From Niastella sp. (lineage in GTDB: Bacteria > Bacteroidota > Bacteroidia > Chitinophagales > Chitinophagaceae), in NCBI GenBank assembly GCA_017744515.1, contig JAGIBF010000046.1:1-64000 (forward strand): a stretch of 64,000 nt of DNA. Reading direction: 5' to 3'. Below, one piece after another: positions 1,097-6,383 of the stretch. The position numbers and the translations under genes are program-made. The number at the start of each line of letters is the position of its first letter. Positions within the stretch are counted from its first letter, which is position 1. The notes below the pieces were generated by a model that was given only the letters and a program-made list of their open reading frames with translations, had not been told where the DNA came from and did no database searches.

Positions 1097-2194
1097 ATGA
1101 AAAAGGTCCTCCAATGGCTGTTCAGAAAACCGGTTGCCTGGCTGGCAGAAAAGGTTTCTTCATCGCCGGATAAAAAGGCTGTATTCGACTCCCTTTCGAA
1201 GCTGCAACAGGACATCGTGAATAAAAAAGGCACCAATGGAGTTGTACTGCCCTTCGATATGGGAAGCGCCAGGTTTATTATATTTTCTGATCAGCACAAA
1301 GGCTGCAGGGACCACGCCGACGACTTTGCACCGGCGGAAGTAAACTACAGAAAGGCACTTCAATACTACTACGATCAGGAGTTCACCTTTATCAATATTG
1401 GCGACTGTGAAGAACTATGGGAAAATACACCCAAAGCTGTAATAGAAACGAACAGACTTACAATGCTGGAAGAAGCCAGATTCCTGCAAGAGAACCGCTA
1501 TTACCGCGTGTTCGGGAATCATGACCTGGAGTGGAACTATCTTATCCAGCAAAACCAATACTTAAAACCCATTTTTGGCGACCAACTCAAAGTATACGAA
1601 GGCGTTTTATTGAAAACAAAACACAATGAACAAGAGTATTCAATTTTCCTGACACATGGACACCAGGGTGATAAGAAAAGTGATGGCAACCCATTCAGCA
1701 AATGGGTAGTGGCAGCTATCTGGACTCCTATCCAACGCTTTCTCGAAATCAGTATTAACACAACTGCTGATTCTTTTGAGCTGGTAGATCGTCATAACAT
1801 TATGATGTATGAATGGAGTGCTACGCAAAACAATCTTATTTTCATTTCCGGGCATACACATAAACCTGTTTTTGCCTCCCTCGACCATATAGACCGGCTT
1901 ACCAAACAACTGGAAAAAGCTGTTGCAGCAGGAGATGAAGAGCAGGCAAAACGGATCTCAGCAGAAATAGAAAAAAGAAAACTGGAATACGCCGGTAAGA
2001 AGTTTGTCAAAACCATGGCGCATCCCAGTTATTTTAACAGCGGTTGCTGTTGCTTTAGTGATGGTGATATAACCGGCATCGAAATAGCAGAAGGATTTAT
2101 CCGCCTTATCAAATGGGAAACAGATGACAAAGGCCCGGTACGTAAAGTGTTGGAAGAATCACCGCTTTACTACATCTTTGATTCACTTGTGTAA
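1097..2194 (+). CDS. Metallophosphoesterase family protein
   Basis: Calcineurin-like motifs: FSDQHKG, NIGDCEELW, VFGNHDLEW, LTHGHQGD, FISGHTHKP. Confidence 0.85.
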   Translation: MKKVLQWLFRKPVAWLAEKVSSSPDKKAVFDSLSKLQQDIVNKKGTNGVVLPFDMGSARFIIFSDQHKGCRDHADDFAPAEVNYRKALQYYYDQEFTFINIGDCEELWENTPKAVIETNRLTMLEEARFLQENRYYRVFGNHDLEWNYLIQQNQYLKPIFGDQLKVYEGVLLKTKHNEQEYSIFLTHGHQGDKKSDGNPFSKWVVAAIWTPIQRFLEISINTTADSFELVDRHNIMMYEWSATQNNLIFISGHTHKPVFASLDHIDRLTKQLEKAVAAGDEEQAKRISAEIEKRKLEYAGKKFVKTMAHPSYFNSGCCCFSDGDITGIEIAEGFIRLIKWETDDKGPVRKVLEESPLYYIFDSLV

Positions 2195-3643
2195 TTATTC
2201 TCCCATTACTTCTCCGCCTTTTTTCATCCATGGCCTGGGTGCTGCACCATCCATTTTCACGATCTTAGGATAAAACAGACCTACAGTATCTACAAGATGT
2301 TGCTGGGCATTCATCACTGTATAGATATCCTTATAGGCATGTGGGGCCTCATCCAATCCACCTCCCAGCAGTTTCACGCCATGCTTTGTAAGCATTTCCT
2401 GTAAAGCGTTCTTTGTGATGGCATTCAAGGCAGCCGTTCTGCTCATTTTACGTCCCGCTCCATGCGAAGCGGAATTGATCGACGCCAGTTCACCCTTACC
2501 TTTTACGATAAAGCCAGGCGCCGTCATGGAACCAGGAATGATACCCAGCACATTCTTACCGGCAGGTGTAGCACCTTTTCTATGCACGATCACTTCCCGC
2601 CCTTCGTACATTTCCCGCCAGGCAAAGTTATGGTGGTTCTCTACCATTTTCAACGGCTGCCGACCCAATTGCTGCGCAATCTTGGCATGGATCACATGAT
2701 GACAGGCGCTTGCATAATCCCCCGCCAGGTTCATAGCCATCCAGTATTCTATTCCTTCATGTTCATCCATTGCCAGCCACGCCAGGTTATTGGCTTCACC
2801 CGGCAAACGCCTTTTCTGTTTAGCCACTTTGGTATAGTGATTGGCAATATTCGCACCCAATGCACGTGATCCTGAATGCGATAACAGTCCGAGGTAATTT
2901 CCCGGCGCCACACCCAACTGCTCATCCTTCTCTTTTACCTCAACAATCCCAAACTCTACAAAGTGGTTTCCTGAGCCGGAAGACCCCAATTGCCTGGCAG
3001 CCTTTCCCTGTAATCCTTTCAACAGAGGCAGCTGATCAAACTCCGGACGATCTATCACCGGATGCGCTGTGGATTGTTCAAACTGTCTTCCTCCACCAAA
3101 CAAAGTAGCCTCATTCAACTCACGGGTAAAATACTGCTCACGCTGTGTCAACTCTTTTGGATCTATATCGAATATGGATAAGCACATCCGGCATCCGATG
3201 TCAACGCCTACACCATATGGTATCACGGCGTTTTCTGTAGCCAATACTCCTCCGATCGGCAACCCATATCCTGCATGCGCATCCGGCATCAAAGCGCCTG
3301 CTATAGACACTGGCAGCTTAGCTGCCTGATACATCTGGTCCATAGCCCCGGGCTCGATGTACTCTCCTCCAAATACATTGAACTGGATACCAGTTGAATT
3401 CAGCGATATTTCCACACCTTCCGGTACCGGCTTAGGCAATAATTGTTGCGCCACGGGCGCCAGTATAGCATCCTCCACATACTCAGCCGGAGTAGCCAAT
3501 ACGTTCTTTAATATTTCTATTGCCTGTTCGGTAGTATGATGCTTGTAATTACGCTCCATCACATTCATGGCAATACTGATCACGGGTCCTTCCGGAAAAC
3601 CTATTGCCCTTAATTCTTTTCCTTTCAATTTTAACTTAGCCAT
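2195..3643 (-). CDS. rtcB: RtcB family RNA-splicing ligase
   Basis: PDAHAGYGLPIGGVLAT, GVDIGCRMC, GSSGSGNHFVEFG, SHSGSRALG, ENHHNFAW, SHGAGRKMSRTAA; the metal and GMP-His motifs of RtcB. Confidence 0.95.
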   Translation of the reverse strand: MAKLKLKGKELRAIGFPEGPVISIAMNVMERNYKHHTTEQAIEILKNVLATPAEYVEDAILAPVAQQLLPKPVPEGVEISLNSTGIQFNVFGGEYIEPGAMDQMYQAAKLPVSIAGALMPDAHAGYGLPIGGVLATENAVIPYGVGVDIGCRMCLSIFDIDPKELTQREQYFTRELNEATLFGGGRQFEQSTAHPVIDRPEFDQLPLLKGLQGKAARQLGSSGSGNHFVEFGIVEVKEKDEQLGVAPGNYLGLLSHSGSRALGANIANHYTKVAKQKRRLPGEANNLAWLAMDEHEGIEYWMAMNLAGDYASACHHVIHAKIAQQLGRQPLKMVENHHNFAWREMYEGREVIVHRKGATPAGKNVLGIIPGSMTAPGFIVKGKGELASINSASHGAGRKMSRTAALNAITKNALQEMLTKHGVKLLGGGLDEAPHAYKDIYTVMNAQQHLVDTVGLFYPKIVKMDGAAPRPWMKKGGEVMGE

Positions 3644-3648
3644 ATTAC

Positions 3649-4722
3649 TTAATTTTCAATAACAGCTCTCCTGAATCCAATTACCTGCACTTGTTGTTGC
3701 TGGCTTACCGGCTCACCCGGATTGGTGATCTCAGCAATGGTCATGGGCTGTTTTATTAATGTATCGAATCCCAGTTGATTGCTCAGTCTTTGCGCTTTTG
3801 GAATACTCAATTTACCAAATTCGTATCGTGCAATCAACCTGCCCTTCCGCATCAGCGCACTATCTATCATCGTCAATGAGCTATTAAATGTACAGATCAA
3901 TTGCACATTCAAAAAGTCAGCCAGTAGCCCATCAGAAATATTCAGCAGATTGGATACTGAGGAATGAGGATTGTTTCTCCTGTCCATGATCACATTTTCT
4001 GCATCTTCGATGATCACCACACTATTGGGGTTATCGATGAGCAAATCAATGAAATCAGGATCAGTGAGGCTTCCTGCGATATTGGGAGACAAAAACATTA
4101 CTTTCTTTTTGATCCGCCCAATTAAGTGACGCAGATAGGTAGTCTTACCCGATCCCGGCACTCCATGCAGTAATACGATCCCTTTATCATCCTTTTGGTT
4201 CAACCGTTTCCTGATATGTGCATCTACCTCTTGGAAATCATCTTCGTAGTAGAGGTCGAGGTCCAGTTTTGTACGCTTGATCTCCATTGCTTTCAATTCG
4301 AGATAGTTGCCACTCTTAACGATCAGGTTGATCTCCAACGGCTTTCTGCGCTGCCTTTCTTTGAATTGACGCAGGAAGCCAATCAGTTCTCCGATCAGCA
4401 GTTCGTTGGCGCTATCATGCAGAAGCTCACAATAGCCTTCAGAAAACTCCAGCACACAACGGTCTTTCAGGATCACGATCGTGTCGTTAAAATCAACTTT
4501 TTTATCGCCCCGTTTGAATTTACGGTACGTATGTACCGACTCAACGAGCGCTTTATATTTTTCCTGGAAAGCTGTATATGCCTTTTCACCCTCGATATCG
4601 TCTACAAAACTGATACAGGGAACAGCAGCAAAACAGTACATGTATAAAGCTTTGCTATCTATATAATAATTATCAAAAATGCTATTGGCATTAATGATAC
4701 GCTGGTCTAAAGTGTTGTCCAT
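3649..4722 (-). CDS. AAA family ATPase (BCS1-like)
   Basis: Walker A LLHGVPGSGKTTYLRHL, Walker B SVVIIEDAENVI, sensor-type segment LICTFNSSLTMIDSALMRKGRL; 5 bp upstream of rtcB on the same strand. Confidence 0.85.
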   Translation of the reverse strand: MDNTLDQRIINANSIFDNYYIDSKALYMYCFAAVPCISFVDDIEGEKAYTAFQEKYKALVESVHTYRKFKRGDKKVDFNDTIVILKDRCVLEFSEGYCELLHDSANELLIGELIGFLRQFKERQRRKPLEINLIVKSGNYLELKAMEIKRTKLDLDLYYEDDFQEVDAHIRKRLNQKDDKGIVLLHGVPGSGKTTYLRHLIGRIKKKVMFLSPNIAGSLTDPDFIDLLIDNPNSVVIIEDAENVIMDRRNNPHSSVSNLLNISDGLLADFLNVQLICTFNSSLTMIDSALMRKGRLIARYEFGKLSIPKAQRLSNQLGFDTLIKQPMTIAEITNPGEPVSQQQQVQVIGFRRAVIEN

Positions 4723-4779: not shown

Positions 4780-4836
4780 GTTTCAAAAACAGTTCGCTAT
4801 TTCATTACACGAGTGCGCATAAAATGTGGTTTTAAG

Positions 4837-4907
4837 CGGGAACAGGATGATTCGAACATCCGTCCATCCGTTAACAGCGGAGCGTTCTGCCATTGAACTA
4901 TATTCCC
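4837..4907 (-). tRNA. tRNA-Asn-like (anticodon GTT), compact, no encoded CCA
   Basis: Acceptor GGGAATA/TGTTCCC, D arm GTTC-AATGGCA-GAAC, anticodon loop CTGTTAA, T arm GGATG-TTCGAAT-CATCC, G73; 4-nt variable loop, 71 nt. Confidence 0.85.
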
Positions 4908-4910
4908 AAT

Positions 4911-5048
4911 AACAGGGTAATGAGTCGAAAAGTGCACATATGTCCATTGCTCTGCCAACTGAGCTACCGGCCCATTGCATGTTCCGGGCTGGACTCGAAC
5001 CAGCGACACATGGGTTATCCGAAGTAACACTTCTCTACGACACCTGTT
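4911..5048 (-). ncRNA. Y-RNA-like element 1: Ro-type stem plus tRNA module circularly permuted at the anticodon arm
   Basis: Outer stem AACAGG/CCTGTT, TGTCGTA internal loop, stem GAGAAGTG/CACTTTTC, TTACTTCGG; then CCAT, T arm GCTGG-TTCGAGT-CCAGC, CCGGAAC-ATGCAAT-GGGCCGG, TA, D arm GCTC-AGTTGGCA-GAGC, ATGG. Confidence 0.75.
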
Positions 5049-5049
5049 G

Positions 5050-5120
5050 ACGGCTTAAGAAGACTCGAACTTCTATCTGTACGTTCGTAGCGTACTATTC
5101 TTCCTTTAAACTATAAGCCG
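5050..5120 (-). tRNA. tRNA-Arg-like (anticodon ACG)
   Basis: Acceptor CGGCTTA/TAAGCCG, anticodon arm GTACG-CTACGAA-CGTAC, T arm AGAAG-TTCGAGT-CTTCT, 4-nt variable loop; T73 atypical. Confidence 0.85.
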
Positions 5121-5123
5121 ATG

Positions 5124-5195
5124 GTTGTCTTTGGGCCTCGAACCCTGTTCTCCTCATTCACAGTGAGGTATTTTACCTGTTAAACTAAAGACAAC
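5124..5195 (-). tRNA. tRNA-His-like (anticodon GTG) with G-1:C73
   Basis: Acceptor TTGTCTT/AAGACAA preceded by G-1 and followed by C73; anticodon arm CCTCA-CTGTGAA-TGAGG; T stem shortened. Confidence 0.85.
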
Positions 5196-5201
5196 ATACT
5201 G

Positions 5202-5274
5202 ATACCGGGCTCAGATTCGAACTGAGAACATCACAGTCAAAGTGTGATATGTTGGCCGGTTACACTACCCGGTA
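5202..5274 (-). tRNA. tRNA-Gln-like (anticodon TTG)
   Basis: Acceptor TACCGGG/CCCGGTA, anticodon arm TCACA-CTTTGAC-TGTGA, T arm CTCAG-TTCGAAT-CTGAG; T73 atypical. Confidence 0.85.
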
Positions 5275-5277
5275 TTG

Positions 5278-5351
5278 TTGGCCCGGTGAGAGTCGAACTC
5301 ACAACCCAGGGAGTAAAAGTCCCTTACTCTGCCTGCTTGAGCTACGAGCCA
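5278..5351 (-). tRNA. tRNA-Lys (anticodon TTT)
   Basis: Acceptor TGGCTCG/CGGGCCA, D arm GCTC...GAGT, anticodon arm AGGGA-CTTTTAC-TCCCT, T arm GTGAG-TTCGACT-CTCAC, A73. Confidence 0.9.
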
Positions 5352-5363
5352 ATGTTTATTCTG

Positions 5364-5436
5364 TTGACCTGCCGGGGCTCGAACCCGGAGCTTTCTGCGT
5401 ATAAGGCAGCTACTCTTACCATTGAGTTACAGGTCA
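5364..5436 (-). tRNA. tRNA-Ile-like with unusual anticodon TAT
   Basis: Acceptor TGACCTG/CAGGTCA, D arm ACTC...GAGT, anticodon arm GCTGC-CTTATAC-GCAGA, T arm CCGGG-TTCGAGC-CCCGG, A73. Confidence 0.8.
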
Positions 5437-5441
5437 GGCGT

Positions 5442-5510
5442 TGCGACCTTCAGATTCGAACTGAGATCTTCACCTTATGAGGGTGATATGCTACCCTTAC
5501 ACCAGGTCAC
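5442..5510 (-). tRNA. tRNA-Met/Ile2-like (anticodon CAT), short form
   Basis: Acceptor GTGACCT/AGGTCGC, anticodon arm TCACC-CTCATAA-GGTGA, T loop TTCGAAT with 4-bp T stem; about 69 nt. Confidence 0.8.
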
Positions 5511-5517
5511 AATAAGT

Positions 5518-5588
5518 ATAGCGGCAACAGGTTAACAGTGTTTAGCTTTGATCCTCAGTCGAAGTATCACTGTTTTACGACACGCTAT
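5518..5588 (-). ncRNA. Y-RNA-like element 2: minimal form without tRNA module
   Basis: Outer stem ATAGCG/CGCTAT, TGTCGTA internal-loop strand, stem AACAGTG/CACTGTT, ATACTTCGA; 71 nt. Confidence 0.65.
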
Positions 5589-5589
5589 G

Positions 5590-5662
5590 TATAGCAGGCA
5601 GGACTCGAACCTGCACCCTCTTCGTTCCAGGCGAAGTATCCAACCAATTGGAATGCTGCTAT
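5590..5662 (-). tRNA. tRNA-Pro-like (anticodon TGG)
   Basis: Acceptor ATAGCAG/CTGCTAT, anticodon arm CTTCG-CCTGGAA-CGAAG, T arm GCAGG-TTCGAGT-CCTGC, A73; position 8 is C. Confidence 0.85.
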
Positions 5663-5667
5663 AAGTT

Positions 5668-5808
5668 GAATGAGCTATAAGATGCACAGCGACTATGATC
5701 TCTGAGCTATCCTGCCCAAAAGACAGGAGCAGGAGTTGAACCCGCGACCTTTCCGACACAAGTACCGGAACGCTCTAACCGAAGTAACGCTATGCTACGG
5801 CATCATTC
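5668..5808 (-). ncRNA. Y-RNA-like element 3: Ro-type stem plus tRNA module circularly permuted in the D-loop
   Basis: Outer stem GAATGA/TCATTC, TGCCGTA, stem GCATAGCG/CGCTGTGC, TTACTTCGG; then TTAGAGC, TTCCG...CGGAA hairpin, T arm GCGGG-TTCAACT-CCTGC, TCCTGTC-TTTTG-GGCAGGA, TA, GCTC. Confidence 0.75.
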
Positions 5809-5814
5809 AATATG

Positions 5815-6348
5815 TTAGTCCATTACTGTTTTTTGTATCTGCACAAGATGTCTTTGCGCATGTTGCACCAGAAAATAGATATAATGATATACATCTATTT
5901 TACCAAGACTATTGACTGTCATCGTTGTTTTATACAACACCCCCTGCCCATCCTTCATTTGATCAAGCAGATCAAGGCACTCCTGCACCTGTAATTGCAT
6001 CGTTCTTTTAATGTCATTCATTGATACTGTCCCGGAAGGCTCCATATGATCAGGTCTATGCCATCTGAAAGCATCGGGCTGCCCGATCAATTCCAGTTTT
6101 GACCAGTCGAGGTCATAATCAGTTAGCATGTCCCGATAACTTTGAGTTCTTGAGCGCTCTAACGCCTTGATCGTTCCCTTCCGGATCAGTATCAACAGAT
6201 ACTTATTGGTCAGGGATATATGTTCCAGTATTTTAGCGACACTCCAACCACCATTTTCAGGCGCATGGTAGAGTTTATCATCATTCACATCGAACCACCT
6301 CAACACTTCATCAAAAGTGCCGGTGAGTTCTGTCCTTATCTTGCTCAT
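5815..6348 (-). CDS. DinB-superfamily (YfiT/DinB_2-like) protein
   Basis: MSKIRTELTGTFDEVLRWF, WSVAKILEHISLTNKY, HYIYFLVQHAQRHLVQI; start chosen after AAGGAGG; stop lies 6 nt before the RNA array. Confidence 0.75.
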   Translation of the reverse strand: MSKIRTELTGTFDEVLRWFDVNDDKLYHAPENGGWSVAKILEHISLTNKYLLILIRKGTIKALERSRTQSYRDMLTDYDLDWSKLELIGQPDAFRWHRPDHMEPSGTVSMNDIKRTMQLQVQECLDLLDQMKDGQGVLYKTTMTVNSLGKIDVYHYIYFLVQHAQRHLVQIQKTVMD

Positions 6349-6383
6349 AAAATCCTCCTTCATGCATTTAACTTTTTGGAAAA

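Follow-up and report, generated by a model that had tools for sequence, protein, structure and literature searches.

Does the RNA encoded between a tRNA-Asn and a tRNA-Arg gene in a 64,000-nucleotide stretch of Niastella DNA (hereafter the window) represent a tRNA gene whose halves stand in reversed order, a decayed piece of the surrounding tRNA array, or a dedicated RNA of the Ro60 system, and what might such an RNA do in a cluster that also encodes Ro60 and the RNA ligase RtcB? An initial annotation had described this RNA (Y1; Table 1) as a Y-type RNA containing a tRNA permuted at the anticodon arm. Every string that it quoted is found on the minus strand in the order given (4910-5049), and the description itself is borne out by an end-to-end match to a known Y RNA family and by pairing among homologues.

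Table 1. Features of the Ro60-RtcB cluster, in window coordinates and listed in the direction of transcription
Feature	Position	Strand	Evidence
Ro60/Rsr-like protein (TROVE + vWA_Ro60)	6443-7960	-	Pfam TROVE E 2.9e-26
DinB_2-like protein, between Ro60 and RNA array	5815-6363	-	
Y3: type B Y RNA, tRNA cut in D loop, anticodon hairpin kept	5667-5809	-	Ro motif, pairing, R2
tRNA-like, anticodon loop CCUGGAA (C33 for U33, A37)	5590-5662	-	Rfam 51.9 bits; ARAGORN no call
Y2: Y RNA, same Ro stem, no tRNA module	5517-5589	-	Ro motif
tRNA-Met(CAU), array copy	5440-5511	-	
tRNA-Ile(UAU), array copy	5363-5436	-	
tRNA-Lys(UUU), array copy	5277-5351	-	
tRNA-Gln(UUG), array copy	5201-5274	-	
tRNA-His(GUG), array copy	5123-5195	-	
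tRNA-Arg(ACG), array copy	5049-5120	-	
Y1: type A Y RNA (YrlA-type), tRNA opened at anticodon arm	4910-5049	-	YrlA match, descriptor, pairing, fold
Y1 predicted Ro-site motif TGTCGTA-N9-TACTTCG	5020-5042	-	
Y1 anticodon-stem 3' strand CCAT	5010-5013	-	
Y1 variable GTGTC	5005-5009	-	
Y1 T arm, then closed acceptor helix, then D arm	4949-5004	-	Descriptor and pairing statistics
Y1 T arm GCTGG-TTCGAGT-CCAGC	4988-5004	-	
Y1 acceptor 3' strand CCGGAAC	4981-4987	-	
Y1 linker ATGCAAT	4974-4980	-	
Y1 acceptor 5' strand GGGCCGG	4967-4973	-	
Y1 D arm	4949-4964	-	
Y1 anticodon-stem 5' strand ATGG	4944-4947	-	
Y1 Ro stem 3' strand (CACTTTTC ... CCTGTT)	4911-4934	-	
tRNA-Asn(GUU), array copy	4836-4907	-	
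AAA ATPase adjoining RNA array	3649-4722	-	
RtcB RNA ligase	2195-3643	-	

Y1 as a Y RNA of the YrlA type

Y1 starts with a lower stem (AACAGG/CCTGTT), the motif TGTCGTA-N9-TACTTCG and a second stem, and the other strands of both stems close its 3' end. The tRNA part enclosed by them runs CCAT-GTGTC-T arm-CCGGAAC-ATGCAAT-GGGCCGG-TA-D arm-A-ATGG; direct pairing within its acceptor is confined to CCGG/CCGG, beyond which an AA/GG internal loop leads to a CAT/ATG extension. A descriptor of this permuted order found no match in base-neighbour (Markov) shuffles amounting to 1.65 Mb, and Y1 folds with a z score of -2.6, none of 200 shuffles being equally stable. The Rfam YrlA model (RF02553) aligns to Y1 from end to end (model positions 1-114; 40.4 bits, E 3.4e-7), its only match in the source genome; the score lies below the Rfam gathering score of 69, which is a database convention and no biological feature, and one Y1 homologue reaches 54.4 bits.

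Y1 is almost certainly a YrlA-type Y RNA, and its 'permuted tRNA' design is the known YrlA fold and no novelty. The tRNA mimicry of YrlA has been solved structurally (PDB 6CU1), and its circular permutation of tRNA has been described (PMC11472068; PMC8394870). Like YrlA, Y1 is linked to Ro60 and combines a permuted T arm, a closed acceptor and a D arm with an anticodon stem that runs into the Ro stem. Apart from its score, it differs from YrlA in its place beside Y2 and Y3 within a tRNA array, and in that most of its Bacteroidota homologues keep an anticodon-loop heptamer. The outer stem of Y1 carries the conserved Ro-site motif, and Ro60 is predicted to bind there.

For comparison, 80 Ro60 loci were retrieved, nearly all of them labelled Bacteroidota. 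RNAs of Y1's kind (type A) were selected by the Ro motif and by the T-loop and D-arm consensus, with no requirement for pairing in the acceptor or anticodon stem, which left 74 unique sequences, contributed by 58 Bacteroidota loci with Ro60. Pairing occupies 91% of acceptor cells in these homologues as against 48% (sd 2%) when the strands are dealt anew, which agrees with the earlier claim that the acceptor end is closed. The anticodon stem is paired in 76% of cells as against 37% (sd 3%) in shuffles, a signal confined to a variable loop of 5 nt, lengths of 3, 4 and 6 nt giving background or nearly so. In the minimum-energy fold of Y1, CATGTGTC pairs with GACATATG and replaces the 4-bp ATGG/CCAT stem; because only the 5-nt variable loop exceeds background, the homologues support the tRNA-like register. 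Compensatory change in ATGG/CCAT and in the acceptor helix, on which the initial annotation had staked its case, is present among the 74 homologues, and the closest relative (locus L002, Paraflavitalea sp. CAU 1676) has TTGT/GCAA in place of the window's ATGG/CCAT. These shuffles do not keep relatedness, yet the margins are wide and several kinds of base pair occur at most positions, so the permuted-tRNA interpretation of type A is upheld. The outer stems served to find the homologues, so their pairing is a selection criterion and not independent evidence.

It had also been claimed that a long stem replaces the anticodon loop. The long stem is there, but the loop is not wholly lost: in the 7 nt before the 39-43 strand, type A RNAs have U33 in 70 of 79 cases and a purine at position 37 in 75 of 79, although Y1 itself lacks U33. 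With the module start as the point of alignment, T reaches at most 59% at any position, and the comparison of the two alignments indicates that an anticodon-loop-like strand is kept in type A, while the retention of U33 and purine 37 places the opening at about position 31/32. Examples of this heptamer at the junction with the Ro stem, with varied anticodons that fail to match the tRNA body, are found at L072 11946, L041 12274 and L031 13189. A descent of the Y modules from particular tRNAs was considered and rejected: with the modules rotated back, the anticodon remnant agreed with the best host tRNA in 4 of 79 cases (5.2 by chance).

If Y1 were a circularly permuted tRNA gene, its precursor halves would be cut and joined, perhaps by RtcB, into a working tRNA, as the permuted genes of algae and archaea are processed to working tRNAs (reviewed in PMC3978253). 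Y1 shares with such genes a 3' half encoded ahead of the 5' half, RtcB is encoded close by, and most homologues keep the anticodon-loop heptamer. However, Y1 forms only 4 of the 7 acceptor pairs, its acceptor is closed, and the RNA bears a Ro stem, which is conserved in all types, tRNA-less ones included. In many type A homologues the acceptor helix is closed by a linker of only 0-4 nt beyond the 7-nt strands, which therefore leaves no room for separate mature tRNA ends. Judged indirectly, from sequence, Y1 does not appear to be processed, as such a gene would be, to a mature tRNA with paired acceptor and free ends, and we regard this explanation as very improbable.

One Ro stem carrying several modules

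The modules follow the Ro motif TGYCGTA-N9-TACTTCG or a near variant of it, which the Y RNAs of nearly all loci have in common. Nearly every locus has several RNAs behind this motif (about 350 candidates in 80 loci, a few of which are false, e.g., the rRNA-like L021:16557), and a T arm is present among the candidates in 78 of the 80 loci. Bacteroidota Ro60 loci encode several Y RNAs that differ in their modules but share one near-invariant Ro stem. A pattern scan of 120 Bacteroidota genomes found the motif in few, and the system is therefore patchy.

Y3 represents a second arrangement, type B: here the opening of the tRNA lies in the D loop rather than at the anticodon arm, and the anticodon hairpin is kept. 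Rfam yields no more than a partial match to Y3 (15.8 bits), and type B is not recognized by Rfam models. Its elements follow in the order GAGC (D-stem 3' strand), base 26, complete anticodon hairpin, variable loop and T arm, and then closed acceptor, TA and GCTC (D-stem 5' strand). TACTTCG is followed by G in 11 of 11 sequences of the first type B alignment, a base that would provide the GG of a D loop. In a pairing test on 14 hand-segmented members (in the L081 row, the D-stem segmentation is shifted by one base), all 5000 shuffles fell below the values for the anticodon-arm, T and acceptor helices, and all but 29 fell below that for the D stem, the weaker excess arising partly because the D stem varies little (GAGC/GCTC, GAAC/GTTC). 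Y3 folds with a z score of -3.9; Y2 taken alone is not more stable than its shuffles (z -0.9).

A covariance model of type B (R2), whose building set includes the Y3 sequence, matches Y3 at 5704-5775 and recovers three members from outside that set (42-49 bits, E 6.5e-8 to 3.3e-6; next match, 31 bits), each directly behind a Ro motif. The matches of R2 in other genomes, as far as they were inspected, are all ordinary tRNA genes except for the window and L124. Another model, R1 (type B with its Ro-side flank), retained the T arm only and was dropped. Type B is very probably a real family.

That intact tandem tRNAs in other genomes match the type B model would be expected if Y1 and Y3 were decayed tandem tRNA genes, their permuted look arising at the joint between the 3' end of one gene and the 5' end of its neighbour. 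But both modules are enclosed by a complete Ro stem that carries the near-invariant motif, their covariation is strong, and the comparative pairing data already contradict a degenerate array; moreover, the loops of type B anticodon hairpins are mostly of lengths other than 7 nt, unlike those of tandem genes. We give this explanation next to no credence.

In a third arrangement, type C, relatives of the window have an acceptor-less tRNA in normal order tied into the Ro stem by its acceptor end; in L006, the Rfam tRNA model matches positions 7-64 inside the Ro stem. Loci L006 (Pseudoflavitalea sp. G-6-1-2) and L009 each contain exactly one A, one B and one C. Types were assigned from sequence sets segmented by hand, from a consensus rule and from model R2, which leaves counts beyond A and B approximate. 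About 16 of the 81 loci have type B and 5 have type C, and the three-way set is therefore recurrent, not general. No Y RNA tied by its T arm was seen among the Ro-motif candidates of these loci.

Searches of open papers yielded no description of D-loop-cut (B) or acceptor-tied (C) Y RNAs or of sets with mixed modules, and we know of no earlier description of either type. What appears new relative to YrlA is the set of types A, B and C beside spare tRNA genes and RtcB, which we did not find described in open papers.

Further modules recur among the Y RNAs. One consists of GGGG...CCCC closing a long hairpin plus a T arm, with no D arm (L024 2604, L025 7588, L060 12876, L079 4230 and about 30 others), and another of a short hairpin plus T arm (L012 9112, L073 12344).

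A distant case is L134, a GC-rich genome of the same phylum and another family that has relatives of Ro60 and RtcB (tblastn E 6e-23, 1e-18). These flank at least five YrlA-like RNAs, two of which score above the Rfam cut-off, and neighbouring reading frames resemble RtcR and RtcA by eye. One of these five, at about 6798-6927, has its elements in type B order on a Ro stem of different sequence, a case that we take as suggestive because the free fold of this RNA prefers another pairing of the D strands. At about 6500-6575, between Ro60 and RtcB, lies a Y-like RNA with a lone anticodon-arm-like hairpin (CATCG-CTGTTAA-CGATG).

The tRNA array and its neighbours

All genes of the cluster lie on the minus strand in the order Ro60, DinB-like protein, RNA array (4836-5809), AAA ATPase and RtcB, and Y3 starts at most 6 bases from the DinB stop codon. 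The closest solved chains to Ro60 are 9l5y and 9kop, and PADLOC gave nothing convincing for the cluster proteins. Ro60 and RtcB adjoin in many of the 80 relatives, and the AAA gene accompanies a tRNA array in six loci (the window, L002-L005 and L009).

The array comprises eight tRNA-model matches and three Y RNAs, the latter transcribed in the order Y3, Y2, Y1, and similar tRNA arrays occur in several other Ro60 loci. The array tRNAs for Asn, Arg, His, Gln, Lys and Met are 51-64% identical to their ordinary host counterparts, and no host tRNA-Ile(UAU) was found elsewhere in the genome. Compared with the L002 array, the tRNAs for Asn, Arg, His and Gln are 92-97% identical, that for Ile 80% and that for Met 74%. 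Low identity to the host together with high identity to L002 indicates that the array tRNAs are maintained, separate copies.

The tRNA-like sequence between Y3 and Y2 has a near-identical copy in L002, at about 12166-12238. In L003 (6145-6262) and L005 (1390-1495), array tRNAs have an anticodon arm lengthened by a nested hairpin (CTTCCTCTCTTTCTGAGAGGTAAATAGAAG, CTTCCTTTCTTTCTGAAAGGTAAACATAAG) and no normal anticodon loop. The genome of the window has a second tRNA cluster (G000:C119:24949-25218; L121 about 6950-7219), mostly low-scoring (Cys, Ser and Tyr calls; 36-62 bits) and with ordinary-looking neighbours.

What the cluster might do

Two known systems resemble the cluster. Cut tRNAs induce the rsr-yrlBA-rtcBA operon of Salmonella, where YrlA itself remains uncut and has been proposed to be a competitive inhibitor of the nuclease (PMC7790460). 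The window likewise has Ro60, Y RNAs and RtcB in one cluster, to which eight tRNA genes and the genes for an AAA ATPase and a DinB-like protein are added. Neither RtcA nor RtcR was seen next to the locus, and control by tRNA fragments as in Salmonella is therefore unsupported for it. In Anabaena, a spare tRNA (trn) operon and rtcB are co-repressed until translation stress (PMC10272220), and a second tRNA set is thus tied to RtcB by expression; unlike the array in the window, the operon lies on a megaplasmid away from rtcB, and PMC10272220 mentions no Ro60 or Y RNA.

Sequence comparison shows the folds, the module order, the covariation, the shared Ro-stem motif, the linkage to Ro60 and often also to RtcB, and the conservation of a divergent tRNA array. 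The best explanation, and probably the right one, its functional part being drawn by analogy from other bacteria, is that Y1 is a YrlA-type Y RNA among variously tied tRNA bodies that would serve a Ro60/RtcB response to tRNA damage; the damage-response role of the cluster, taken by itself, is a possibility that we hold more tentatively. The lower stem of Y1 is predicted to bind the neighbouring Ro60 ring and would present a tRNA body that is open at the anticodon arm and has its D arm, T arm and closed acceptor intact. Ro60 RNPs might present different tRNA faces to tRNA-binding proteins, candidate partners being a nuclease such as PNPase, modification enzymes and tRNA-cleaving toxins, and the Y RNAs might act as recruiters or decoys; RtcB may rejoin cut RNAs, and the array may provide second tRNA copies that replace damaged ones. 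A more specific proposal, that the RNAs form a permutation series tied by anticodon arm, D loop or acceptor with the T arm always free, which would let each RNP offer its own tRNA face to tRNA-cleaving toxins or other tRNA-binding proteins and, with RtcB and the spare tRNAs, would make up a defence unit against tRNA damage, we consider rather unlikely.

Alternatively, the Y RNAs could serve only to tether Ro60 to PNPase for the decay of structured RNA, with the tRNA array an unrelated neighbour. This is the known function of such a Y RNA in Deinococcus (reviewed in PMC8394870), and many Ro60 loci have no tRNA array. However, tethering at such varied points would be unexpected for one effector bound in one way, and Y RNAs lie among the array tRNAs in the window, L002 and L004; that tethering is the whole role seems to us doubtful.

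One tRNA fold thus stands in several circular permutations on a single carrier stem, a natural set for finding which tRNA face proteins read. Because a divergent second set of tRNAs is joined in this locus with Ro60, Y RNAs and RtcB, the role of the bacterial Ro60-Y RNA particle becomes directly testable in environmental bacteria, candidate roles being RNA decay, tRNA repair and decoys against tRNA nucleases.

Two observations concern the surrounding genes. A metallophosphatase-like gene (1097-2194, plus strand) converges on RtcB, and L002 has the same order (83% identity). Two adjacent frames on the minus strand (13058-13720 and 13745-14359), which lie a few kilobases away from the cluster of Ro60 and RtcB, resemble 2H phosphoesterases (LigT-like) by eye.
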